DNA of 58,919 nt from a virus. The notes under the pieces were generated by a model. The model was not told where the DNA came from. It saw nothing but the letters and a program-made list of their open reading frames with translations, and searched no databases. The stretch's first letter is position 1. Every line of letters starts with the position of its first letter. This document shows, piece after piece, positions 1 through 56,560 of the stretch. The DNA lies in IMG/VR virus record IMGVR_UViG_3300042288_000398, positions 1 through 58,919 of that record. One strand, given 5' to 3'. Position numbers and translations under genes: made by a program.

Positions 1-465
1 TAGGTTGTTGATCTTGCCAGCAGTACCCTGTACATAGTATGTAAGAGTTGTTCCACCATTGTTAATTACAACGGTTCCAATTGCTGTTGTCTTTGTGTAG
101 ACAAAGAATGTTGCAGTTGTTCCAGTACCTGTTGCAATTGTCAAAGATGATGATCCTGACGATGCTCCGACTGGTGCTGCTGATGTGTGTAGTGCTGATA
201 CGATTGTTGCGTTAGTTGCTACTGCAGAAACTGATGTTCCTGCCGCTACTGTTGCCACAAAGCGTAATGCATCTGCTGCATCGATTGTATTGTCTGCTGG
301 GACTGGTAATGTGGCAGGGGTAGCAATTACACCATTAGTTGTGTTTGCTGTTCCATCTAGCGTTACCGCTACTGTCATTACTGTAGCATTTGCAGGTGCT
401 ACGGCGACCATGCCCAAAGTCATGGCTGCAACCATGGCTAGTGCGATTTTCTTAAATGACTTCAT
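1..465 (-). CDS. exported Ala/Thr-rich protein, 3' end outside window
   Basis: The start is the ATG at 465-463, preceded by AGGAGA about 9 nt upstream; 155 codons are open to the window edge. Residues 1-26 form a clear Sec signal peptide: Lys-rich N-terminus, hydrophobic core and an APANA cleavage site. The mature part is rich in Ala, Thr, Val and Ser, with alternating short hydrophobic stretches that suggest a beta-sheet surface protein. I do not recognise a family. It is one of four Sec-exported proteins in the first 9 kb, so a role at the host envelope is likely but inferred. The remainder, including any anchor or binding domain, is not visible. Confidence 0.75.
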   Translation of the reverse strand, partial: MKSFKKIALAMVAAMTLGMVAVAPANATVMTVAVTLDGTANTTNGVIATPATLPVPADNTIDAADALRFVATVAAGTSVSAVATNATIVSALHTSAAPVGASSGSSSLTIATGTGTTATFFVYTKTTAIGTVVINNGGTTLTYYVQGTAGKINNL

Positions 466-513: not shown

Positions 514-684
514 CTAGTGTAATTCATGTACTTTTACATGAAACGAGCAGGGATCCCCGCCCTCTTCCCATTCTTGCATTTCTTCGTCTGACATTGGTGG
601 ACCATCGTGTGTGTCACAAAACACATCAGATATCCATCCTCTATCATAACCATTTTTTAGCCATATCTCAAACTCTAAATCCAT
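514..684 (-). CDS. small acidic protein, unknown function (56 aa)
   Basis: ATG at 684-682 with GAGGAG about 9 nt upstream. That ribosome site lies inside the last codons of the thioredoxin gene, and the two genes overlap by 10 bases (675-684) in different frames. The 56-residue product is acidic, with an MSDEEMQEWEEGGDPC segment, two Cys and several His. No domain is recognised. The overlap and ribosome site point to a real, translationally coupled gene. It is the last gene seen in this operon before the leader of the exported protein. Confidence 0.7.
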   Translation of the reverse strand: MDLEFEIWLKNGYDRGWISDVFCDTHDGPPMSDEEMQEWEEGGDPCSFHVKVHELH

Positions 685-977
685 TCGGAAATCTCCTCAA
701 TAAATTTATGTTTTGGCATAGCTCCCTTAGTTCTCTTTACCTCTTTACCGTCTTTAAAAACAATAACAGTAGGCAAAGAAATGACATTGTATTTATCTGC
801 ACTGAATGTATTTTCATCTGCATCTATCTTTCCTATCCACACATTGTATTCTGATGCTACTTCATCAAGTATGGGAGAAAATCTTTTGCATGGACTACAC
901 CATTCAGCCCAAAAATCTACAAGGACAACATGATGAGATCCAATAACTTCATCGAAATTACTGTCAGTTACAATCAT
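675..977 (-). CDS. thioredoxin-like disulfide reductase
   Basis: A complete 100-residue single thioredoxin fold. The active site is WCSPC (C27 and C30), a variant of the usual WCGPC, and the cis-proline loop is SLPT (P69). The conserved VDFWAEWC strand-helix context is present. Thioredoxins reduce disulfides in cytosolic proteins, and in phages they can serve as a polymerase processivity factor or electron donor. There is no signal peptide, so it acts in the cytoplasm. The start overlaps the stop of the preceding gene as TAATG. No thioredoxin reductase is visible, so host reductant would be needed. Family assignment is firm; its target is unknown. Confidence 0.93.
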   Translation of the reverse strand: MIVTDSNFDEVIGSHHVVLVDFWAEWCSPCKRFSPILDEVASEYNVWIGKIDADENTFSADKYNVISLPTVIVFKDGKEVKRTKGAMPKHKFIEEISEWI

Positions 978-1183
978 TACTTATCCTTTAGCGCCTCTGC
1001 TGCTTCATTGAAGCGTATCATAAAATTTTGGATTACCCAAAATGTTGTTTCACCAGCATTCTTGGCCATGGCCTCAGACGCCTCTGGTGTTATATCTTCT
1101 TGTGCCAAACCATTATACCATTTCTGATACAGTTCTTGGCCAAGATCCTTAATTATTCCGTCCAGCACTGTGATTTCAGCCAT
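977..1183 (-). CDS. small helical protein, unknown (68 aa)
   Basis: I choose the ATG at 1183, which overlaps the last 8 bases of the subtilase gene (AATGGCTGA), over a longer reading from 1219 that would run 44 bases into that gene. The product (MAEITVLDGIIKDLG at the start, ending ALKDK) is mostly predicted helix, with Trp residues and no transmembrane segment or Cys. No family is recognised. It is coupled to the subtilase upstream and to thioredoxin downstream (TAATG overlap), so the three genes share one message. Confidence 0.7.
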   Translation of the reverse strand: MAEITVLDGIIKDLGQELYQKWYNGLAQEDITPEASEAMAKNAGETTFWVIQNFMIRFNEAAEALKDK

Positions 1184-2348
1184 TAAGTTTTGCCATCCAA
1201 GCTGCTTTAGTTGCTGCAAGCTTATCTTGGGCTAACTTTAAATCAATTGCATACTGCTTTTCTGCTTCTGCAATACCAGCATCAACCTCTAGCTTTAACG
1301 CTGCTGCTCGTGCAGCCTTTGCATCTGCTAGTGCCTTTGCATCTGCTAGTGCCTTTGCATCTGCTAGTGCCTTTGCATCTGCTAGTGCCTTTGCTGCTGC
1401 TTCTGCTGATACAGAATTTGTAGGGCTAGCACTTACTGAATTAGAAAAAGTGATTAGTTTTTTGAATGTTCCTTGTCTTCCAACTGTATTAACTGAGTTA
1501 GCCTTCATTATATTAATTAGATTACTGCCAGATTGACCAGAAGTTGACATAATGCTTAGATATGTTGCTGCAGCAACTTGAGTTGCAGATGAAGTTCCAG
1601 CAATATTTTTAGAAATATTTCCTGGCCCAACCGCTGAAAGATTTCCAAGCGCAAAGAAATCAAGTCGTGCTGAATCATTATTACTGTATGATGCGATTTC
1701 ACCAATTTGATCCACGGCACCGACAGAAACTACTTCTTCAATGCACGATGGCCAATCAATTCGTGAATAGTCGCGGTTATTTCCTACCGCAGAAAAAACT
1801 GGGATGGACATAGAGTTTAACTGCTGAACTGCAGAAATTGTTCTTGGGAATGTTGGACAATATTGTGTGCCAGATTTACCAAGCAGACCGCTGCTGCCCT
1901 GTGAAAGAGAAACAGCCTTAACATTATACTTAACTGCATTGTCTCTTAGCCAAAAAAGTGCTGCAGAAATTGTTGATTCACCAGTTGGCTTTCTTAGTCC
2001 AGCAGGTGTATTTCCAATAATCTTAATAAACAAAATCTTAATGTTAGGGTTAGACTGCACAGCAGTAGTTGCCATAAATGTTCCGTGATCAAAACCATTC
2101 TTGGTAATTAATGCATTTGGCATTGATGCTGATCCTGGGCCCTCTTGAAAATTCGTTCCATTTGGGCATAGTGACCACTCAAGGATGCAAACCTCTCCGA
2201 CAATTTTGCCTTGCAGAGAAGGAACTGATGTGTCAATTGCTGTGTCTAGAATAGCTAGAACTGGTGCGTCTGTACCAGATGCCTGTGAAATTGCAACAGG
2301 TGATAGAAGTGATAAAGTAAGTACCGCCGTGATTAGTTTATTTTTCAT
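1176..2348 (-). CDS. exported subtilisin-like serine protease (S8 family)
   Basis: 390 residues. A Sec signal peptide covers residues 1 to about 24. A catalytic domain follows (about 28-275) with the S8 triad in order: D35 in AILDTAID, H88 in FDHGTFMA and S253 in AGTSSATQ, plus oxyanion N190 in AVGN. The motifs look intact, so the enzyme should be active. Residues about 308-390 are an Ala/Lys-rich helical tail containing four ADAKAL hexads from an 18-base DNA repeat. Secretion implies action outside the membrane, for example on surface proteins. A promoter places the transcript start at the ATG, predicting a leaderless message. A secreted protease is unusual phage cargo; its substrate is unknown. 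Confidence 0.9.
   Translation of the reverse strand: MKNKLITAVLTLSLLSPVAISQASGTDAPVLAILDTAIDTSVPSLQGKIVGEVCILEWSLCPNGTNFQEGPGSASMPNALITKNGFDHGTFMATTAVQSNPNIKILFIKIIGNTPAGLRKPTGESTISAALFWLRDNAVKYNVKAVSLSQGSSGLLGKSGTQYCPTFPRTISAVQQLNSMSIPVFSAVGNNRDYSRIDWPSCIEEVVSVGAVDQIGEIASYSNNDSARLDFFALGNLSAVGPGNISKNIAGTSSATQVAAATYLSIMSTSGQSGSNLINIMKANSVNTVGRQGTFKKLITFSNSVSASPTNSVSAEAAAKALADAKALADAKALADAKALADAKAARAAALKLEVDAGIAEAEKQYAIDLKLAQDKLAATKAAWMAKLNG
1321..1392 (-). repeat. four tandem 18-base repeats in the subtilase tail
   Basis: Four exact copies of an 18-base unit (plus strand gcatctgctagtgccttt) at 1321-1338, 1339-1356, 1357-1374 and 1375-1392. On the coding strand each adds a six-residue ADAKAL unit to the helical C-terminal tail. 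The copies are identical at DNA level, which suggests recent expansion by slippage. Copy number may differ between related phages without breaking the frame. Confidence 0.95.
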
Positions 2349-2354
2349 ATCTTA

Positions 2355-2382
2355 AGTATACTAAATAAGATAGGGTTGTCAA
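2355..2382 (-). promoter_or_regulatory. promoter for the subtilase, predicted leaderless start
   Basis: -35 TTGACA (2382-2377), a 16-base spacer and -10 TATACT (2360-2355). The -10 is followed by six bases and then the ATG at 2348, so transcription would begin at or next to the start codon. No Shine-Dalgarno sequence precedes the ATG. The -35 contains the TGA stop of the small upstream gene. Confidence 0.8.
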
Positions 2383-2531
2383 GGCTTTTGCTTATACCAT
2401 TTCCCAGAGTCCAAATTATTTGTTGTTTTGCCCTCGATAATATCATTAACTAAAAGTATTAGAATATCAGTAAGTGCACTAAGGTCTTCAACCCTAGACT
2501 CAAGCTGCTTAATCTTTTTAGAGTTCCTCAA
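2379..2531 (-). CDS. small coiled-coil protein (50 aa), TTG start
   Basis: The TTG start at 2531 is chosen because AGGAG lies 5 bases upstream, inside the end of the previous gene (overlap 2518-2531). The 50-residue product begins with a basic segment and continues as an amphipathic helix with heptad-like Leu/Ile spacing, IKQLESRVEDLSALTD, typical of a short coiled coil. No family is recognised. Its stop codon lies within the -35 box of the subtilase promoter. Confidence 0.7.
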   Translation of the reverse strand: MRNSKKIKQLESRVEDLSALTDILILLVNDIIEGKTTNNLDSGKWYKQKP

Positions 2532-2889
2532 TGTTGCTCCTATCTATTGGTGTCGGGGCTGTTGCAAGGCTCCCGCAGCTTAGGCATTCCATGTCTAAGA
2601 AATAGCTTGCTATCTCATATTCTGAGAATACAACTTTTACTAGCCAAACTTCAGATCCACACAGACAAACATGTGTTGGAGTTCCCCTTAGATCCATGGC
2701 CTTATTATAGTCTACTGGAGGAATGTATCTGGGATCACTCTCTGCTATCACCCTTATCATATCCTGAACGGCTTCTTCATACTTATCAATATAGTAAACT
2801 CCAACCTTAAACCTTTTAAAAAAAAGAACAAGGAAAAATGAGGTTAGTATTAATGCAATTGATATGGATACTGCTAGGGCTATTCTCAT
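2518..2889 (-). CDS. membrane-anchored zinc-ribbon-like protein
   Basis: 123 residues. One N-terminal transmembrane helix (about 2-24, ALAVSISIALILTSFFLVLFF) is followed by a basic FKR, predicting a cytoplasmic C-terminal domain. That domain has CLC (about 75-77) and CLSC (about 102-105) pairs, which together could bind one zinc. No known family is recognised. A TATAAT box six bases before the ATG predicts a leaderless message. The next gene overlaps its end. Confidence 0.75.
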   Translation of the reverse strand: MRIALAVSISIALILTSFFLVLFFKRFKVGVYYIDKYEEAVQDMIRVIAESDPRYIPPVDYNKAMDLRGTPTHVCLCGSEVWLVKVVFSEYEIASYFLDMECLSCGSLATAPTPIDRSNIEEL

Positions 2890-2895
2890 ATCTAA

Positions 2896-2924
2896 ATTAT
2901 ACCTTAAACTTGAATATATGTATA
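2896..2924 (-). promoter_or_regulatory. promoter for the membrane zinc-ribbon gene, leaderless layout
   Basis: -10 TATAAT (2901-2896) lies six bases upstream of the ATG at 2889. A weak -35, TATACA (2924-2919), sits 17 bases further up. No Shine-Dalgarno sequence is visible before this ATG, consistent with leaderless translation. Confidence 0.6.
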
Positions 2925-3461
2925 GGGGGCTGAAACGCTCATATTAAATGCTGTTGCTGCTTCTAATGCTAATTTTAATCTTAGCTTAGGATTTTTTTGA
3001 TTTTTAGTTGCATACAAAGCTCCAAGTGCTATCTGACCACCGCTTCCTTCTGCCATATAATTAACTATATTTTCTCCTACATGAAAATCTTCATCTATTG
3101 TAAATATTCTTCCTTCAACGCCTACTATAAAAATTCCGCCACTGTCTTCTTCAGAAGAAGATCCTATGCTACCGTACCCGTGATCTTTAAACGCAACCTT
3201 TACTGAATCTATAAACTTGGTTCTCATAAACTTATCTAAACCAGAGTTTGTTTTAGTTGGCGTATATTTTGGTGGGGTCCACATGTATTGCAGAATTTGT
3301 CCCATTCTAAATGAATCTGTAAACGCAATTCCATACTGACCAACTTTAAAACATTTTGGTTCTTTTCTTGCAAGGATCCATCCAGTTTTATCGTCTGAAG
3401 CTGCATGGTCGGAACCCATGTAAACGCTTCCATTTTGGGCTATAGCAACTATACATGTCAT
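2904..3461 (-). CDS. proteasome-superfamily Ntn hydrolase
   Basis: 185 residues beginning MTCIVAIAQNG. Removal of Met would expose an N-terminal Thr nucleophile. D18 in MGSDHA and K33 in ARKEPK fall at the spacing expected for the proteasome beta/HslV catalytic Asp17 and Lys33. A late SGGQIALGAL segment resembles the conserved Gly-rich loop of beta subunits. The family comprises self-compartmentalised peptidases, often oligomeric, but oligomerisation and the partner ATPase are not visible here. It may act on host or phage proteins in the cytoplasm. It has its own promoter with a predicted leaderless start. Superfamily confidence is good; activity is inferred. Confidence 0.85.
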   Translation of the reverse strand: MTCIVAIAQNGSVYMGSDHAASDDKTGWILARKEPKCFKVGQYGIAFTDSFRMGQILQYMWTPPKYTPTKTNSGLDKFMRTKFIDSVKVAFKDHGYGSIGSSSEEDSGGIFIVGVEGRIFTIDEDFHVGENIVNYMAEGSGGQIALGALYATKNQKNPKLRLKLALEAATAFNMSVSAPYTYIQV

Positions 3462-3467
3462 GATTTC

Positions 3468-3496
3468 AGTATACTATTTTAAAAATTATTTGTCTA
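3468..3496 (-). promoter_or_regulatory. promoter for the Ntn hydrolase, leaderless layout
   Basis: -35 TAGACA (3496-3491), a 17-base spacer and -10 TATACT (3473-3468), then six bases to the ATG at 3461. The same TAGACA-17-TATACT combination recurs at 30138-30166. The -35 overlaps the 3' end of the preceding gene. Confidence 0.75.
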
Positions 3497-5207: not shown

Positions 5208-5236
5208 ATTATACTAGCACAATTCGGACATGTCAA
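5208..5236 (-). promoter_or_regulatory. near-consensus promoter for tRNA-Leu
   Basis: -35 TTGACA (5236-5231), a 17-base spacer and -10 TATAAT (5213-5208): a perfect match to the housekeeping sigma consensus. The start would fall near 5201, a few bases before the tRNA 5' end at 5193. The -35 contains the TGA stop of the small gene ending at 5233. Confidence 0.85.
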
Positions 5237-6644: not shown

Positions 6645-6839
6645 TTAGTCCTCTTTTCGTAGTGGTATGGTTAGAAGCCATATTGCTGTGGCAATCAAAG
6701 TGGCGACTCCAACTACCTGCTGAGCTGATCCAGTTAGGGTTAGCCAAGCAATAAAGAATCCTAATAGGGTGAATATTTGGGCTATACTTTCCTTGATTAC
6801 TTCCCATATATATTTAAATAGGGCCTTGATTATTTTCAT
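6645..6839 (-). CDS. small holin-like membrane protein (64 aa)
   Basis: 64 residues with a strong ribosome site, AGGAGG, five bases before the ATG. An N-terminal amphipathic segment (KALFKYIWEVIKES) is followed by two hydrophobic helices (about 19-36 and 41-57). It ends with a basic PLRKED. This is typical of a short holin or antiholin. With the larger two-helix protein nearby, the pair may form a holin/antiholin set. Confidence 0.7.
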   Translation of the reverse strand: MKIIKALFKYIWEVIKESIAQIFTLLGFFIAWLTLTGSAQQVVGVATLIATAIWLLTIPLRKED

Positions 6840-8959
6840 TATATCCTCCTAGTCATTGCAGCTGCAATAATATTTGATGCGATAATTACTGGTATTACAA
6901 CTTCCTGCGCTTTTTCTCTTTGGTCATCTGTCATATCTTTACCCCATTCTGAAGGTTTTAAAATTTTTTCAAAATCTATATCCAATATAGCCCCTATTGG
7001 ATCCGCCAAAAATGCTTCTGTTTGAACCTCTGTTGTTGCATCTGCTAAAGTATACGGCATATTCGCATCTCCTGCTGACGCTGCTCTATCTTCAAATTCT
7101 ACAAATGCCGTGGCCAATTCTGGATTGCTTTTCATTGCTTCAGCAATTGCTGATACATCTGAAGATTTAATTCCAAGGTTTTCTGCAACCTCAGATTTTG
7201 CTTCTTTTGTTAAAGCAGTTAATGTTTGGCTAATTGCAGAAACTTGTTCAGGACTTAGTATAACTAATTTATTATCTTTACTTGTTAAATTAGCTATGAC
7301 CCCAGAAAGATCTTCTGATGTTCCAGTTCCCTTTTCAGGAATAAGCGCTGCTAATTCTTCATCTTTAATTTCAACATTGTCTGTGGGCTCGTCTGTTGGT
7401 TCATCTGTTGGTTCAGATGTAGGCTCGTCTGTAGGCTCTGGTGTTGGTTTATCTGTTGGTTCAGATGTAGGCTCGTCTGTGGGCTCGTCTGTTGGTTCAG
7501 ATGTGGGTTCAGATGTAGGCTCGTCTGTAGGCTCTGGTGTTGGTTCATCTGTTGGTTCAGATGTGGGTTCAGATGTAGGCTCGTCTGTAGGCTCTGGTGT
7601 TGGTTCATCTGTTGGTTCAGATGTAGGCTCGTCTGTAGGCTCTGGTGTTGGTTCTGGTGTTGGCTGATTTGCTGCAGCGTTTGCTGCTGCTTGTGCAATT
7701 GCGGCGTTTAATTCTCTTTCAGATTGTTCAAAATAATAGTTCCATGCATCTTCAATAGCAGAATTTAAATCAATTATAGATTGATCATATGTGTTTATTC
7801 TATTATTTTTTAATTCTAAAGCAGATGTTAGGTTTTGTTGTGCAATTGTTAGGTTTTGGCTTGCTGTTGTAAGGCTTGATGTGAGATTTTGCAAGGCTTG
7901 AACTTCTTGATTATAAACATTTAGTTTGTCATTATATACTGCTAATTTATTATTATAGTTTGTTTGTGCTATAGCTTGTCCTGCAACAGCATCATTGTAA
8001 GCATTTATCTGTGCTTGAGTTGGTACTGATCCAGAAGAAAATGTATTAAGATTACAGCTAAAATTTTGTCCCCAGACTCTTGGATTTCCAGCATAATCAC
8101 ATCCTGCTCCAGTCCATCCACCAGGTATAGCCCAGCCAAGATGATAGGAACCTGGTCCTCCACCGTTATACCACCATATTTCTACATCTAAAGTTTTGTC
8201 TTCACTAACATCATATACGGGAGAGTAATCGCTCCAAGTTGTCCCTTGCTCTACCCAGTTATCAACAGCAAGTTGCCCGTCAACATACATTCTAAAACCA
8301 TCATCTGTATATCCTGCAAAGTAGGTTTGTGTAAACCATGAAGGGACTGTTATCTGTCCAGTAAATTTAACTATAAGGTTTTCATATCTATTTCCGCACA
8401 CTGGAAGACTCATATGGCTTGAGTTCCAGGTGCCAGAACAAAGAACAGATCCTGGGGTAGCAACATTGCCCTGCCTAACAAGAGTATAAACAGTGTATGC
8501 CAAACCTGTTCCTCCAGCACTCTGCATACTTGATTGAGTAGTTTGAACATTAATATTGGCTATGCTGAGTGCATCTTGAGCATCATTCTTTTCTTCAAGA
8601 GCGTTGTCTTTATGTTCAAGGGCCAAGGCTACTGTGACTGTCTGGCCATCTACATTTGACTGAGCAAGGTTTTTAGCTTCCAGTGCTGCGGATTCTGCAT
8701 TTACTGCATCTTCGTGGGCATCATAGGAATCATCTCTAAGCTCCAAAGCATTTGTGGCATATGTAAATTTATTTTCTGCTATGTCTATAAGATCTATAAA
8801 ATCATCTTGATAAACTAAATTAGATACCTTACTATTAAGCTCTTCTATTTCTTGAGCGGCTAGGCTAAGTGGATCATCTCCGTGGGCAGGAGTAAGAAAT
8901 ACCCATCCAAACATTAAAATGGTGGCTAATGATAATCTCCATGCTTTAGTCCTAGTCAA
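6839..8959 (-). CDS. large exported PA14-domain protein with Pro-Thr repeat stalk
   Basis: 706 residues from a TTG at 8959, six bases after AGGAG. Signal peptide about 1-27 (AHG end). A helical coiled-coil region covers about 30-145. A PA14-like domain covers about 150-290 (TQTYFAGYTDDGFRMYVDG, then VDNWVEQG and WWYNGGG). PA14 domains bind glycans. A second coiled coil spans about 315-430, a PTDEPTSEPT-type repeat stalk about 433-527, and a C-terminal domain ends in a hydrophobic helix and TRRI, probably a membrane anchor. It would be a cell-surface glycan-binding protein or part of lysis or exclusion. The downstream holin-like gene abuts it. Confidence 0.8.
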   Translation of the reverse strand: MTRTKAWRLSLATILMFGWVFLTPAHGDDPLSLAAQEIEELNSKVSNLVYQDDFIDLIDIAENKFTYATNALELRDDSYDAHEDAVNAESAALEAKNLAQSNVDGQTVTVALALEHKDNALEEKNDAQDALSIANINVQTTQSSMQSAGGTGLAYTVYTLVRQGNVATPGSVLCSGTWNSSHMSLPVCGNRYENLIVKFTGQITVPSWFTQTYFAGYTDDGFRMYVDGQLAVDNWVEQGTTWSDYSPVYDVSEDKTLDVEIWWYNGGGPGSYHLGWAIPGGWTGAGCDYAGNPRVWGQNFSCNLNTFSSGSVPTQAQINAYNDAVAGQAIAQTNYNNKLAVYNDKLNVYNQEVQALQNLTSSLTTASQNLTIAQQNLTSALELKNNRINTYDQSIIDLNSAIEDAWNYYFEQSERELNAAIAQAAANAAANQPTPEPTPEPTDEPTSEPTDEPTPEPTDEPTSEPTSEPTDEPTPEPTDEPTSEPTSEPTDEPTDEPTSEPTDKPTPEPTDEPTSEPTDEPTDEPTDNVEIKDEELAALIPEKGTGTSEDLSGVIANLTSKDNKLVILSPEQVSAISQTLTALTKEAKSEVAENLGIKSSDVSAIAEAMKSNPELATAFVEFEDRAASAGDANMPYTLADATTEVQTEAFLADPIGAILDIDFEKILKPSEWGKDMTDDQREKAQEVVIPVIIASNIIAAAMTRRI
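7380..7666 (-). repeat. tandem Pro-Thr-Glu/Asp/Ser repeats at DNA level
   Basis: About 290 bases built from 12-base units encoding EPTD, EPTS and EPTP tetrapeptides (plus-strand ggctcgtctgta and ggttcagatgtg types). They are arranged in larger near-identical blocks, for example the segments beginning near 7505 and 7565. Such arrays vary in length by slippage while keeping frame. They form a stiff stalk in the surface protein. Open frames on the plus strand here are by-products of the repeat. Confidence 0.9.
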
Positions 8960-10264: not shown

Positions 10265-10681
10265 TTATTTAATTTTTAGAATTTTTGGTTGTTTTTCTTT
10301 TGGTAGGTTTCGAACAACACGAATATTTAACATGCCATCCTTTAGCTCTACACTAGAAACTTCCATGTATTCACTTAGTTCAAATATTCGTGTGAACTTA
10401 CGTGCAGCAATTCCCTTATGGACAACTTCTGCGTCTGTTACTTCTGTAATTTCACCTGTAATCCAAAGACTGCCGTCTTCGATTGATACAGTTAAATCTT
10501 CTCTTGTGAATCCAGCAACTGCCAGCGTTAACTGATAGTTGTCTTCGTCTAGCTTTAGCAAATCGTACGGCGGGAATGCAGTATTATTTACCTTACTAAG
10601 ACTATTGAAACGCTCCAACTCTCTGTTGAAGCCAATAAAAAATGGATCCTTAAATAGATCCATAGCAAATTGTGTTACCAT
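10265..10681 (-). CDS. small heat shock protein (Hsp20/alpha-crystallin)
   Basis: 138 residues: a short N-terminal arm (MDLFKDPFFIGFNREL), an alpha-crystallin domain (about 38-130) with YQLTLAVAGFTREDLTVSIEDGSLWITG, and a C-terminal PKILKIK tail containing the I-x-I-like anchor. These are ATP-independent holdase chaperones; T4-like and cyanophages carry relatives that protect proteins during infection. AAGGAG precedes the ATG by a good spacing. The leader begins with a stable hairpin, and there is a dedicated promoter. Confidence 0.95.
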   Translation of the reverse strand: MVTQFAMDLFKDPFFIGFNRELERFNSLSKVNNTAFPPYDLLKLDEDNYQLTLAVAGFTREDLTVSIEDGSLWITGEITEVTDAEVVHKGIAARKFTRIFELSEYMEVSSVELKDGMLNIRVVRNLPKEKQPKILKIK

Positions 10682-11179: not shown

Positions 11180-11791
11180 TTACTCCGCAGGGTTTTCATA
11201 TAAATATGCAGAGGTTACAAATCTTTCCCCTGAGATAAGAGTTTTAACGCCATGCTCTGACATGCTAGGGAATACTAATACTGAGCCTGCCTCTGGTTTC
11301 ACAATTAAATCTAAATCAGGAAATTCTAATTCCCCGCCCTCAAAGTCTTCATTGAACCATAAAAGTGCTGTGAAAGAAGGAACAATACCAACTCCGCCAT
11401 CTCCATGCGGAAGCATGAAAGAGCCCTCTGTGTATTTTCTTACAACTATATTTTTTTGGTCTATCCAAGTACGTTCTGGCATTTCATTGACATCTATATT
11501 ATTTTCAACTGGTGATGCAATATTTAAAGAAAGTCTTTCTTTATTTTTCCCAACATAATCTTCAAATACATTTTTAAATATATCCATCAAATCAGAATAA
11601 TTATTTGTATCTGGCCAAACAATTACAGCAGATCCTTTAATTCCACTATGGCCTTCTGTGCCATCTGGATTTAAGCCATTTGTATATTCGAACCAATTAG
11701 CCTGGCCTTGTATCCTTTTTAACAAAGCATTAATGTTTGGATTTACATTTTTATAATACCAAATATCTTCTGTCAACTTAACGTGGTTCAT
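11180..11791 (-). CDS. 2-oxoglutarate/Fe(II) dioxygenase (first of three)
   Basis: 203 residues from the ATG at 11791, preceded by GGGAG; an upstream ATG at 11836 lacks a site. The iron triad is H129-x-D131 in LPHGDGG and H180 in SEHGVK; R190 in SGERFVTSAYL likely binds 2-oxoglutarate. This is the prolyl-hydroxylase-like double-stranded beta-helix pattern. The substrate is unknown; phage members have been proposed to act on proteins or nucleic acids. A TATAAT box lies in the leader near 11858. Confidence 0.88.
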   Translation of the reverse strand: MNHVKLTEDIWYYKNVNPNINALLKRIQGQANWFEYTNGLNPDGTEGHSGIKGSAVIVWPDTNNYSDLMDIFKNVFEDYVGKNKERLSLNIASPVENNIDVNEMPERTWIDQKNIVVRKYTEGSFMLPHGDGGVGIVPSFTALLWFNEDFEGGELEFPDLDLIVKPEAGSVLVFPSMSEHGVKTLISGERFVTSAYLYENPAE

Positions 11792-11888
11792 TTTTTCTCC
11801 CTTAAAATAATTAAACAAAATTTTACATCTACCCAATTAAGGGACGGATAGTCCTATTATACTATAACATTAGGCTATCTTATATTAA

Positions 11889-12297: not shown

Positions 12298-14099
12298 ATT
12301 ATCTCCATGCTTTCTATAGATCTAGCTAAACTTTCAGGCATTCTAGGTGCACGAATCATATTCTGAACATACTCTACTTCGCCATCGTTGCCGTTTGCAA
12401 AGTCGTTATCGTAGCTCATTGATTCATAGTCGTGTATTTTTATCTCTTCATCTCTTTTTATTCTGCTTCTGCTTATAGAGTTATAAACTGCTCCGCATAC
12501 AGCGTCCGCTAAGTCTTTGGATCCTTTTCTCGGGTGGTCAACTTTATCTCTCATAATTCTTAGCTGAAGCAATTCATCAATTAAGAGCGGTATATGTGGT
12601 CCAGATAGCCTTTCTTCTAGAACAACCATTGCCATATCATCATAATGTTTTTTTGCAACTGAAAGAATTTCTGTATTAATTCCATATGTTTTTAACTGCT
12701 GCATCATATCATGAGAGTTCCATCTATCAAAGGTGCAAACCTTTATATTGAATCCTCTAGTTTTTAAAGAAAGTATATAGTCTTTTACTTCTGTAAAGTC
12801 TACAGACTTATCTGGAGTAGGTGTCCAAAATCTAACCGCATCTATTTCTACAATTGGTGCTGGCTGGTTGTAGGTATCTGTTACTTTTATATCAACCCAT
12901 TTATTTACGTGACCCATGGCAACTGCACAGTGGTCATGCTTTTGAGCTAAATCCACATGTATAAAATAATCTTTTCCTTCTTCTGGCTTAAACCATTCTT
13001 CTAATCTTCCAAAAGAATCTACTGCTAGGTGAGCTTTATTAAACGCCTTCTCTATCTTGTCTCTTGATTTGAAAAATGCGTCAACTGCGTCAGTTGGCAT
13101 ACATGCAAATCTTCCTAGTGCGTCTTGTGGATTTTTGTGAAAAGCAACAGTAAAATCTGTTATCTTTTTTGTAGGATTTACTTCCCAAGTAGGCCTTTTT
13201 AAAGCAAAAACTCTTGGGTAAACATAAGAAACAATATGGTCTTCTTCCCATGAAACCTCAAATTCGTTTCCTGCTGTTCCGTTTGGAAGATCCTGGTCTA
13301 GCTTTAGTATCTCTGTTCTAATAATTGTTTCTTTTTCTGCAATAACTGATTGATAAAACTTTTGTATTGGATCGTTTTTAAATCTTGGAAATGACAGCAG
13401 GATAACCTTTCCAAAGTCTGGGAAGCGTGAGTCTACTGAAGCACGATACATATCATATATAGCATCTGCTGTTTTAGCCTGATCGTGGCCGCTTGTATTT
13501 TCTGTTGCGAAGCCTGATATCTCATCAAGTATTACTACAAGAACATTGTACCCCTCCCATGCCTCTCTTTCGGAGTGACCAGAGTGTACAGTAATTGATT
13601 TATCAAATTTAATTTCTGACGCTTTATCTGTATACTTGCCAGCAAACCACGGAGAAACTTCAATTCTCATCTTAAAGCCTTTAAAGAAAACATTATTTGC
13701 TTGCTGTGAGTTTATAGCAATGTTTAGGATATCAATTGCATCTCTAGGTGGCTTTCCATAATAAGCTGCTGGATCCTTTAAGCATAAAAGTAAGTAAACT
13801 ATATATGCAACTGCAATAGTTGATGAGTAGTCTTTACCAGACCCTTTGCCTAACTGTGCAATAACTTCAACACAGGTTTGTTTAAACATTTTCTTGCCGA
13901 GCTCTTCCCCATATAATTTTATTAGAGTAGACTCTTTGTAAATCTGAGAGCTTCGCTCTATTAATGTATATTGATTTTCTGAAAGTGGTGGAAGACCTAG
14001 GTAGTCTGGGCTAGTTACAAATGTCTGTAGGTCTACTGGGCGCTCTTCAAACTCTTCACCATCTAAAATTTCTATAAAATCTGAAAAATCAAGTGGCAT
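12294..14099 (-). CDS. terL: terminase large subunit
   Basis: 601 residues. The N-terminal packaging ATPase has Walker A QLGKGSGKD (82-90) and Walker B VLVVILDE (186-193). The C-terminal RNase H-like nuclease has HVDLAQKHDH (D383) and a later FDRWNSHD acidic segment. It translocates DNA into the prohead through the portal and cuts concatemers. The gene follows a small-terminase candidate and a 2-oxoglutarate oxygenase, not the portal, which lies more than 42 kb away in this window. Both enzyme halves look intact. Confidence 0.93.
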   Translation of the reverse strand: MPLDFSDFIEILDGEEFEERPVDLQTFVTSPDYLGLPPLSENQYTLIERSSQIYKESTLIKLYGEELGKKMFKQTCVEVIAQLGKGSGKDYSSTIAVAYIVYLLLCLKDPAAYYGKPPRDAIDILNIAINSQQANNVFFKGFKMRIEVSPWFAGKYTDKASEIKFDKSITVHSGHSEREAWEGYNVLVVILDEISGFATENTSGHDQAKTADAIYDMYRASVDSRFPDFGKVILLSFPRFKNDPIQKFYQSVIAEKETIIRTEILKLDQDLPNGTAGNEFEVSWEEDHIVSYVYPRVFALKRPTWEVNPTKKITDFTVAFHKNPQDALGRFACMPTDAVDAFFKSRDKIEKAFNKAHLAVDSFGRLEEWFKPEEGKDYFIHVDLAQKHDHCAVAMGHVNKWVDIKVTDTYNQPAPIVEIDAVRFWTPTPDKSVDFTEVKDYILSLKTRGFNIKVCTFDRWNSHDMMQQLKTYGINTEILSVAKKHYDDMAMVVLEERLSGPHIPLLIDELLQLRIMRDKVDHPRKGSKDLADAVCGAVYNSISRSRIKRDEEIKIHDYESMSYDNDFANGNDGEVEYVQNMIRAPRMPESLARSIESMEII

Positions 14100-14688
14100 A
14101 GTTAAACCCTTTTGGAACTTTTATTTTTTTAAAAATTTTATTTGAATGAAAATATCTTATATCGCTTTTTAATTCTTTGACTTCATGAAAGCATATATCT
14201 TCGGCGCTATGTATAATCAAATCTCCTTTTTTTGGGCTGTAGGATACTCCTTGATTGATATAGCTAATCTCTGCGCCATCGAAATCATTAAAGTACAATA
14301 CAATACCAGCAACGGTATCTTCAGCTAAATCAAATTCTTCTAGATCTTTTGCAATCTTGCTTGCTTCTCTTGCAGGCAAAGAGTCATGGTTATCGGAGTG
14401 CGGGGCCCCTCTGTATCCTTTTCTCATTACAGATACACCACGATCTGAGCCGAGGTAGTATCCATCTTCAAGCAAGCTGATTACCCTGTTGTCTACCTCA
14501 ATAATTTTTTCTAGCCAAACAACAGACCTTTCGTAGAATGTTATTGTTTCATTTTTATTAGTCCACCAATTATCTTCTGATATACTTTCTGACTCTAACA
14601 CTATTTGATTACAGTCATCATCAGATACAAAACCATGAAAAACATATGAGTCTTTACATAACTCCACGAAGCCACTCTTATCAAACAT
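14089..14688 (-). CDS. 2-oxoglutarate/Fe(II) dioxygenase (second of three)
   Basis: 199 residues. H97-x-D99 in APHSDNHD and H168 in ICFHEVKELKSDIRYF form the iron triad, with R178 as the likely 2-oxoglutarate ligand. IVLYFNDFDGAEI matches the strand preceding the distal His in prolyl-4-hydroxylase-like proteins. It lies between the terminase small and large subunit genes and overlaps both, so it is expressed with packaging proteins. A role on capsid or terminase proteins is possible but not shown. Confidence 0.82.
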   Translation of the reverse strand: MFDKSGFVELCKDSYVFHGFVSDDDCNQIVLESESISEDNWWTNKNETITFYERSVVWLEKIIEVDNRVISLLEDGYYLGSDRGVSVMRKGYRGAPHSDNHDSLPAREASKIAKDLEEFDLAEDTVAGIVLYFNDFDGAEISYINQGVSYSPKKGDLIIHSAEDICFHEVKELKSDIRYFHSNKIFKKIKVPKGFNYAT

Positions 14689-18389: not shown

Positions 18390-19226
18390 TTATTCCTTTA
18401 CTTCTATTACATTAGATGGTATAGAAAGCTTTATAGTCTGCAAGTCTTTTTCAACATAAGATTCTTCTGTAGTAACATTAAGAAGGTGGTCCGACAACTC
18501 ATACTTTTTTGTCCATTCAACTTCACCAGAAACCTCAGAGTCAATAAATGCTCTTAGGAAGTATCTATCCGATTTACTAAATGGCTTTACCCCATGATAA
18601 AATGGCTCAGTTGAAGGCATAATTACTGCGTCGCCAGGCATTGGCTTATACATATATGTATTGTTTGAAATTGAATCGTAAACACATATCTCTCCGCCAT
18701 CATATTCATCGTTTAAATAAAAGTTAACTGTTGCAACGTGCCTATTTATTTTGGTTTCTCCAGGAACTGGAAGTTCATCTACATGATACTCCATTATCAG
18801 ACCAGAAGGATTAACCTTGCCTTGAGCTTTTACATCATATCTAAAAAAATCAATCCAGTATTTTTTATTAACATCTTTAAGTAAGCCCCAGTCTTTTATA
18901 AATGATGGCCAAATACCATTTTTTTCATCGAAATCACTTAAATAGTCTTCTCTTATAAATTTCATGCACCTGTTAATCTCAAGGATGTACTCTTTTTCTT
19001 TGTTAAGAAATACATCTGTTCCAGGGTCTATGCTTTCCAACAATGCGAAGTCTGCATCTCTTCTGTAACCTTGGCCGTACCAATCTCTCCAGTTATTAAA
19101 AAATGAAGGGTCTCTGTTTTCTTTAAGCAGATCTATTATTTCTTTGCTGTGTTTAAATATGTTTTTATATATAACAATTTGTGGAGCCACAATTATTTTT
19201 TTTACATCTTGAAATTCTAAATTCAT
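18390..19226 (-). CDS. 2-oxoglutarate/Fe(II) dioxygenase (third of three)
   Basis: 278 residues from the ATG at 19226 (a TTG nine bases upstream is less likely). H148-x-D150 in MEYHVDE and H211 in FYHGVKPF are the iron ligands, and R221 or R225 in SDRYFLRAF the 2-oxoglutarate ligand. VNFYLNDEYDGGEI and MPGDAVIMPS match the prolyl-4-hydroxylase-like core. The N-terminal 120 residues are family-specific. It follows a zinc ribbon and RecA. Substrate unknown. Confidence 0.85.
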   Translation of the reverse strand: MNLEFQDVKKIIVAPQIVIYKNIFKHSKEIIDLLKENRDPSFFNNWRDWYGQGYRRDADFALLESIDPGTDVFLNKEKEYILEINRCMKFIREDYLSDFDEKNGIWPSFIKDWGLLKDVNKKYWIDFFRYDVKAQGKVNPSGLIMEYHVDELPVPGETKINRHVATVNFYLNDEYDGGEICVYDSISNNTYMYKPMPGDAVIMPSTEPFYHGVKPFSKSDRYFLRAFIDSEVSGEVEWTKKYELSDHLLNVTTEESYVEKDLQTIKLSIPSNVIEVKE

Positions 19227-19227
19227 T

Positions 19228-19416
19228 TTAACCAACCTTTACTTCGTTAAGGTGTCCATCTGGACACTCCCAAGCAAGCACCATAGACTCTGAATCCCAA
19301 AACGACTCTTCAGAATTTTTATCGCATTTGAAACATGGCTTAGAGCCAACTATTACCTCTAAATTATTTTTTTTAGGCTGCTCTGGCTTATTAAAAAATT
19401 CATTAAGATTTGGCAT
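19228..19416 (-). CDS. small zinc-ribbon protein
   Basis: 62 residues. CFKC (about 28-31) and a later Cys in WECPDGH form a possible zinc site. The N-terminal NEFFNKPEQPKK resembles an interaction peptide. It overlaps the end of the RecA gene by 14 bases and abuts the oxygenase gene. No function is recognised. Confidence 0.7.
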   Translation of the reverse strand: MPNLNEFFNKPEQPKKNNLEVIVGSKPCFKCDKNSEESFWDSESMVLAWECPDGHLNEVKVG

Positions 19417-55192: not shown

Positions 55193-56560
55193 CTAGTTAA
55201 ATATTTCGTTTACGGAACCGAGGAAAGAACCGTTCCATTTTGATTTGTTTACTGCTTGTACCGCAGACCCGCCGAGGTCTGAGGACTTCTTAATTGCTGT
55301 ATCGCCTTCTACGGCATCTACACGCTTTTGAACACCATCAATGGTGCCCTTTATTTCTGTTACAGCTGCACTAAGTGCGCTGTGCTTTTCTGCTAATTCT
55401 GTGATTTGAGCATTTAAGCCCTTGCTAAAAGTCTCTACAGTTTCTTTGATTTCAGAAACCTGTAATGCATTTGCCTCTGTAGCCTTGCTAAGAGTATCTG
55501 CAAAGAATCCCTTTAGGTCTACTAACATTTTTGCAAAATCAGGCTCTTGTCCTTCAACTGCAGCTGACGCATCTGCGTCTACTGACTTAAAGACATCTAC
55601 AGAAGCAGAGTCTGCATCTTCTGCTTTAGCAGCTGGTGCATCTTCGACGGCCTTGACGTTAGTCTCAACCATGGTCTCTTCAACGACGACAACTTCTTCA
55701 GCAGCTGGTGCTTCTGCAACTGGTGCTTCTGCAACTACTGGATCTGTACCGTGTACGTTTAGTTTTTCCACTTCATTACCTCCTTGTGCGTTTGCCTGTT
55801 TTGCTATTGTTTGTGTTGCAGGCAACGTAACTCTTGACTTCTTGAATGAAGCAAGAACTTTATCTATCTCTTTTGATTTGTTTATGTCTGAGCTTTCAAC
55901 CCATCCAATTAGCGTAGCCTCTTTACCAGTAACTGGAGATGAGTATGTCTTGTCTGTCGAGATGAAAACAGAGTCGCTATCTTCGCAATAAAAAATATTT
56001 TCTGTGACAACATCTGCTGCCATTCCTTTAAAAATAAGTTGACCATTCATTTTTTCTATTGAAATAATATTGCACATTTCATTTGCTGGTGAATCTACAA
56101 TTGAAAGTTCTACTAAGTCATATTCTTTAATAAAACGAACAGACTCTCCTGTTGCCTTATTTATTTCATTATCTGAATCTTTAATCTTTCCGCCAATTGA
56201 AAAACCAGAAAGAGTTCCATCAAGAACCTTCTCCCAAGTATCCTGTGCGCCCTTTGATATGTATGAAGTTACATAAACTCCATTATAAAATTCTTTTGAT
56301 TTTTGATCGTAGTAAGTCTCTGGCTTAAATGAAACTACTTTGCCAACTGCAAGTGGCTGATGCATCTCTCTAAGATTTCCTCTAAATGCTTCAAATGCCT
56401 TTAGGCTTGCTTCTGCTGTTACGACGTCACCAGTTTGATCTACATTATCTAGAGTTGCAAATCCAGACACGGTTCTATTCTCCCTGTTTACTTTTGTAAA
56501 AGGAACAGATAAATGAAGGTTTTGGCCGTCAGAAGACCACTGACTTTTTTCTATGTTCAT
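55193..56560 (-). CDS. prohead protease fused to scaffold-like domain
   Basis: 455 residues. The N-terminal S78-type protease (about 1-175) has H67 in REMHQPL and S118 in GTLSGFSIGG, and the EYDLVELSIVDSPAN signature. A second segment (180-250) is beta-rich. The remainder is Ala/Glu/Val-rich with coiled coils (about 340-430), like an internal scaffold that would be cut out during head maturation. A single gene combining protease and scaffold is known in other phages. Confidence 0.88.
   Translation of the reverse strand: MNIEKSQWSSDGQNLHLSVPFTKVNRENRTVSGFATLDNVDQTGDVVTAEASLKAFEAFRGNLREMHQPLAVGKVVSFKPETYYDQKSKEFYNGVYVTSYISKGAQDTWEKVLDGTLSGFSIGGKIKDSDNEINKATGESVRFIKEYDLVELSIVDSPANEMCNIISIEKMNGQLIFKGMAADVVTENIFYCEDSDSVFISTDKTYSSPVTGKEATLIGWVESSDINKSKEIDKVLASFKKSRVTLPATQTIAKQANAQGGNEVEKLNVHGTDPVVAEAPVAEAPAAEEVVVVEETMVETNVKAVEDAPAAKAEDADSASVDVFKSVDADASAAVEGQEPDFAKMLVDLKGFFADTLSKATEANALQVSEIKETVETFSKGLNAQITELAEKHSALSAAVTEIKGTIDGVQKRVDAVEGDTAIKKSSDLGGSAVQAVNKSKWNGSFLGSVNEIFN

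Follow-up and report, generated by a model that had tools for sequence, protein, structure and literature searches.

The window analysed here, a stretch of 58,919 nucleotides that spans positions 1 to 58,919 of the virus record IMGVR_UViG_3300042288_000398, encodes a subtilisin-family (S8) protease of 390 amino acids (positions 1176–2348, minus strand) that has neither the prodomain nor the nine-residue calcium loop of ordinary subtilisins. It is considered likely that the gene provides a working enzyme which is expressed from a leaderless mRNA, exported by the Sec pathway, able to fold by itself, and used to cut proteins at the cell surface or beyond it in lytic infection. A first-pass annotation of this DNA had recognized a secreted subtilisin with an intact triad, but three features escaped it: the absence of the prodomain and calcium loop, the predicted leaderless nature of the mRNA (both of which are new here), and a conserved helix at the C-terminus of the protein.

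Identity and Conservation of the Protease

The open reading frame at 1176–2348 was matched by Peptidase_S8 (PF00082) in a Pfam profile search with an E-value of 1.3e-14 and a score of 54.6 bits (cut-off, 21.8), and its AlphaFold (AF2) model, which is of moderate quality (mean pLDDT, 77.8), presents the subtilisin fold; a Foldseek search with this model returned variants of subtilisin BPN′ with an E-value of 8.7e-16. The catalytic core comprises residues 29–300 (1449–2264, minus strand), and the Asp-His-Ser order of the S8 family together with the oxyanion Asn is kept throughout an alignment of 81 sequences. The individual residues, D35, H88, N190, and S253, were invariant in three sets of homologues (36, 81, and 77–79 sequences), save for one fragment among the 36 without D35, and four Cys residues (54, 61, 164, and 202) are likewise unchanged across the 81 aligned sequences. 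Purifying selection acts on the core, for which pairwise dN/dS values are 0.06–0.20 (median, 0.12). The earlier identification of a phage-encoded subtilisin with intact triad and oxyanion residues is thus borne out by profile, fold, and conservation, no loss of catalytic residues having been seen in the relatives.

Residues 1–23 (MKNKLITAVLTLSLLSPVAISQA; 2280–2348, minus strand) constitute a predicted signal peptide. By rule-based criteria (a basic N-region, a hydrophobic core, and a small-x-Ala site) rather than a trained predictor, a Sec-type signal was recognized in 80/80 homologues, in agreement with the previous claim of a signal peptide, and export is predicted. At the start of the gene, ~60 nt (2289–2348, minus strand) are almost invariant, synonymous sites included (dS of ~0.05 vs. 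~1 in the core), the cause of which is perhaps leaderless initiation or recombination. The notion that this segment is a repeated site was discarded, given its single occurrence in the window, and a search of Rfam near the protease gene returned tRNAs only.

Absence of a Prodomain and of the Calcium-A Loop

The phage protease has in common with secreted true subtilisins (S8A) a Sec-type signal, the D-H-S triad, and the oxyanion Asn; unlike them, it lacks an I9 prodomain and the calcium-A site, its N-terminus is shorter, and its GTSMAxP and SLG motifs are altered. The residues that precede the catalytic Asp, signal included, number 32–38 in all 81 sequences compared to 46–200 in seven comparison S8 proteases, and there is therefore no room for a prodomain; an I9-type propeptide between the signal and the catalytic domain was found in none of the 81. 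The distance from the catalytic His (H88) to a lysine of the next strand (K109) is 21 residues in 81/81, as opposed to 30 in BPN′ (the comparison sequence was checked and is identical to PDB 1sbn) and 24–33 in the seven comparison proteases, which derive from Bacillus phages and plasmids. MAFFT and hhalign agree in placing a nine-residue gap in the phage protease at positions 77–85 of BPN′, between N100 and P101 (2046–2051, minus strand). In BPN′, calcium site A is made up of this loop together with Gln2 and Asp41. The site is not found in the phage proteins: the loop (75–83) is absent from 81/81, the position of Asp41 is never Asp in the 81 homologues, and the N-terminus is shorter than that of BPN′.

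The top Foldseek matches were mostly engineered, loop-deleted forms of BPN′ (chains of 263–266 residues vs. 275), with a modest gap in E-value to the wild-type subtilisins. Removal of residues 75–83 makes the refolding of BPN′ greatly faster, the engineered Sbt-70 is able to fold without a prodomain, and an extra disulfide leads to faster folding of subtilisin (PMC4865297); SBT189 is another engineered subtilisin of the calcium-independent group (PMC7935941). With these calcium-independent forms of BPN′ (Δ75–83; Sbt-70, SBT189, and peptiligase), the phage protease shares the fold and the catalytic residues, and, as in Δ75–83 BPN′, the same surface loop is gone at the same length of nine residues, with prodomain-free folding to be expected; it differs from the engineered enzymes in being natural, in being 20–24% identical to them in structural alignments, and in having a signal peptide, four invariant Cys residues, and a helical tail. 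By analogy, the phage protease would fold unaided. Against this reading, some S8 groups, such as proteinase K, have a shortened loop and retain their prodomains.

The substrate-binding region is also modified. Within the motif GTSMA[ST]P around the catalytic Ser, G[TS]S is kept among the 81 homologues, Gln (73) or Ala (8) stands in place of the Pro, and the S1-wall residue L126 is Gln in the phage protease; because of these changes, cleavage specificity may be narrow. The position that forms the floor of the S1 pocket, G166 in BPN′ and D198 here, is Asp in 67/81 sequences and Ser in 14/81. Basic P1 residues are favoured by the G166D variant of BPN′. Since an Asp occupies the predicted S1 pocket, the protease is predicted to cut after Lys or Arg.

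The C-Terminal Tail

Beyond the core, the protein has a linker that varies among relatives and, at its C-terminus, a conserved helix. The latter (residues 346–390, ~45 in number; 1179–1313, minus strand) forms the end of a predicted helix of 75 residues and was found in no other open reading frame of the window or of the 80 loci searched. The Ala-rich, helical linker of the window is encoded by a tandem repeat of 18 bp in 4.4 copies with 100% matches (1315–1394, minus strand); exact 18-bp repeats typify the clade of the window (24-bp in some relatives), and elsewhere the linker is often Pro-rich. Two of the sequences, L042 and L043, both from metagenome assemblies, match at every position over 1161 bp, and a single exact 18-bp unit is all that separates them; another pair, L049 and L050, is one 24-bp unit and six substitutions apart. 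The slippage-prone, four-copy repeat described earlier is exact in the window and varies in copy number among relatives, which supports a change in copy number by slippage with the caveat that metagenome assemblies are concerned. The tail is absent in 5/36 homologues, and hence any anchoring that it provides would not be essential.

Promoter and Predicted Leaderless Expression

Directly upstream of the protease ATG is the sequence TTGACA-16-TATACT, its −35 element at 2377–2382 and its −10 element at 2355–2360 (minus strand), the latter ending 6 nt before the ATG, and this would provide the gene with a promoter of its own. All 80 homologues have TTGA upstream; TANNNT precedes the ATG by 6 nt in 78 of them and by 7 nt in the other 2, and a Shine-Dalgarno-like motif was found upstream in 0/80. 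From these promoter-like signals, the mRNA is predicted to be leaderless; such mRNAs are common in actinobacteria, accounting for 22% of the expressed genes of M. tuberculosis (PMC3898074).

Two conserved genes upstream are predicted to be leaderless as well. One encodes an HslV-like protein (Ntn hydrolase; 2904–3461, minus strand; phrog_1040, 5e-19; 79/80 loci) and has TANNNT 4–7 nt before its ATG in 77/77 cases; the other encodes a protein of 123 amino acids (2518–2889, minus strand) and has it 4–6 nt before the ATG in 48/48, 47 of these at exactly 6 nt. Together with the protease gene, they are predicted to form a cluster of leaderless phage genes conserved in nearly all relatives. Close TANNNT signals were found at none of the endolysin, holin, helical, and Ig-like genes, and a scan of the window for the leaderless-promoter pattern gave 7 matches compared to 2.1 expected. 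In the window, the HslV-like, 123-residue, and protease genes are consecutive, each with a −10 element that ends 6 nt before the ATG and no Shine-Dalgarno sequence (2346–2360, 2887–2901, and 3459–3473, minus strand). A perfect TTGACA-17-TATAAT promoter is located just upstream of a tRNA-Leu gene (5208–5236, minus strand).

Genetic Context

Downstream of the protease gene, and with overlapping ends, are the genes for a helix-rich protein of 68 amino acids (977–1183, minus strand), which overlaps the protease stop codon in 79/79 relatives, and for a thioredoxin with a WCSPC active site and no signal peptide (675–977, minus strand; PF00085, E-value of 1.4e-27; 78/80 loci). A conserved protein of 56 amino acids belongs to the same cassette (514–684, minus strand; 78/80 loci). 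At one locus, L178 (4861–5260), the protease open reading frame is cleanly missing, and the protease promoter sits directly on the helical gene with that of thioredoxin behind; by eye, the first codons of the protease appear also to be fused to the helical gene. With the protease promoter placed to drive the helical gene in L178, a single transcription unit is supported, and the operon of protease, thioredoxin, and small helical protein proposed earlier is strengthened by both this fusion and the coupled starts (79/79). L178 also demonstrates that loss of the protease can occur. A function of the helical protein as an obligate chaperone or immunity partner of the protease was rejected, L178 having kept the one without the other.

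A second protein that looks exported, containing Ig-like domains along with a helix of ~100 residues, is cut by the end of the window (1–465, minus strand; 72/80 loci). In relatives it has about 330–390 amino acids, and its AF2 model gave Foldseek matches to Ig-like proteins; it was assigned to no Pfam family and had no match in annotated phages. This mosaic neighbour might mimic a host surface protein. Its long Ala-rich helix (window, 1–465; L037, 9884–11008) has a conserved end; a C-terminal anchor common to it and the protease was rejected when hhalign found no similarity. Other genes on the minus strand encode a large protein that combines a signal-like segment at its N-terminus, a PA14 domain, and a long Pro/Thr/Glu repeat array with periods of 48 bp and 12 bp (6839–8959), an HSP20 small heat-shock protein (10265–10681), and three 2OG-Fe(II) oxygenase-like proteins (11180–11836, 14089–14688, and 18390–19235), the second of which scored under the curated cut-off.

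The evolutionary distances of the protease track those of the upstream WhiB/HslV region (Spearman coefficients of 0.71–0.88), compared with coefficients of 0.21 for the downstream helical protein and 0.08 for the Ig-like protein, a contrast that hints at recombination around the 3′ end of the protease gene (1176–1183, minus strand).

Distribution, Lifestyle, and Host

A first scan of viral contigs yielded 35 loci, and an alignment-based scan raised the number of viral contigs with relatives to at least 380; 80 of these loci were retained. A second sample of 80 loci was picked by the upstream HslV-like gene to avoid selecting on the protease itself, and the protease was present in 78; one contig ends before the protease gene and the other, L178, has lost it. 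The view of the first-pass annotation that exported proteases are rarely carried by phages fails within this lineage, where the protease is nearly a core gene. Among 20 whole records, exactly one S8 gene was found in each of 18 relatives and none in the L178 record or in Streptomyces phage Circinus, figures that are informative for copy number alone given that most of the 18 were chosen for carrying the protease. Neither a tyrosine integrase nor a serine recombinase was detected in 17 relatives of near-genome size (97–120 kb), and the phages therefore look virulent; a lysogenic conversion gene (moron) was rejected on the same grounds and that of one copy per genome.

Two scans of species genomes from bacteria and archaea (84,980 in total), the first with a single protein and the second with an alignment, found no cellular relatives of the protease, where "virus-only" holds at the sensitivity of the short peptide patterns that seeded these scans and by which distant relatives could be missed. 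Recent acquisition from a host, a question raised previously, is thus not supported by any close cellular homologue. Annotated phages gave matches in Bacillus phages only (25–28% identity), and plasmids gave only distant S8 proteases (26–29%). The enzymes of these Bacillus phages (Goe3 group, SP-15) are also phage-borne, but they are of the intracellular type with no signal peptide and a full calcium loop (30 residues), and belong to other phage families; an assignment of the window protease to the intracellular serine proteases (ISP) was rejected as it has a signal peptide and lacks the full loop. The best PHROG match was phrog_3677 ("protease"; E-value of 3.8e-16 over residues 31–270), a profile of 1125 positions of which the S8 part alone matches, and the best viral structural match was A0A6J5NRV7, an AprE-like protein of an uncultured Caudovirales phage with 487 amino acids and 24% identity. 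A literature search, with most subscription journals outside its reach, returned no published report of this protease group.

The window represents one virus record, and the major capsid and portal proteins of its late region are 59 and 56% identical, respectively, to those of Stanwilliamsviridae Streptomyces phages. These structural genes, together with a WhiB gene in the window, lead us to infer an actinobacterial host. A separate S78-type capsid protease is encoded at 55193–56560; it fills the place of a capsid maturation protease, and this function was rejected for the S8 enzyme.

Proposed Role of the Protease

The protease gene is proposed to have a host-type promoter of its own, from which a leaderless mRNA would be made; the product would leave the presumed actinobacterial host by the Sec pathway and act, in the course of lytic infection, as a serine endopeptidase on proteins at the cell surface or beyond it. 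With no prodomain, and without the nine-residue high-affinity calcium loop that slows the unaided folding of ordinary subtilisin, the enzyme would be self-folding, and disulfides formed from the four invariant Cys residues, conceivably C54–C61 and C164–C202, probably give it stability instead. The long C-terminal helix and, in the clade of the window, the 18/24-bp repeat linker of changing length probably retain the catalytic domain at the envelope or make it part of an oligomer. It is tentatively suggested that the protease trims proteins which the host secretes or displays on its surface, the favoured benefit being control of superinfection.

An involvement in lysis, with the protease acting late to loosen the protein layers of the envelope or to activate or protect the endolysin for virion escape, is judged unlikely. 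A CHAP endolysin and a holin-like protein are encoded by the same strand ~3 kb upstream, but the lysis genes show no leaderless signals whereas the protease has its own host-type promoter, and the protease distances follow those of WhiB/HslV more than those of CHAP (0.33) or holin (0.36; fewer loci in these two). It is quite improbable that the protease serves as a maturase of phage surface proteins, processing the neighbouring Ig-like or PA14/PT-repeat protein. Both appear to be exported and are encoded nearby, and the Ig-like protein likewise ends in a long Ala-rich helix; however, the two C-terminal helices are without detectable homology, and the lack of co-variation of the Ig-like protein with the protease speaks against a dedicated pair. 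Very little credence is given to a virion-associated or structural role, in which the S8 protein would digest a barrier as the phage adsorbs: S8 domains are known in viral tail and baseplate proteins (BFVD matches), but this protease has a predicted signal peptide and its own promoter, sits outside the tail cluster, and has no counterpart in the related phage Circinus. Finally, nitrogen can limit plankton and an exported protease could free peptides, but the feeding of amino acids to the infected cell by extracellular proteolysis, as raised earlier, is scarcely credible for one single-domain enzyme of a virulent phage, with no recognizable set of peptide transporters or peptidases among its annotated neighbours, products that would diffuse off before lysis, a possibly narrow specificity, and a conserved tail that points to retention.

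It is possible, though somewhat less likely than not, that the enzyme belongs to a natural subtilisin lineage, so far virus-only, which dispensed with the prodomain and the calcium-A loop as engineers did, and which remodels the host surface in widespread virulent actinophages from a leaderless transcript made by host RNA polymerase.

Implications

The phage enzyme lends itself to testing why subtilisins depend on a prodomain, nature having apparently removed the loop that engineers did, and a small, chelator-resistant protease with no need for a propeptide is a possible product. The near-universal occurrence of a single protease gene in large, lytic, probably actinobacterial phages suggests that surface cutting is routine in their infections. 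If true, a common group of actinophages would regularly employ surface proteolysis when infecting, a step that has received hardly any consideration so far.
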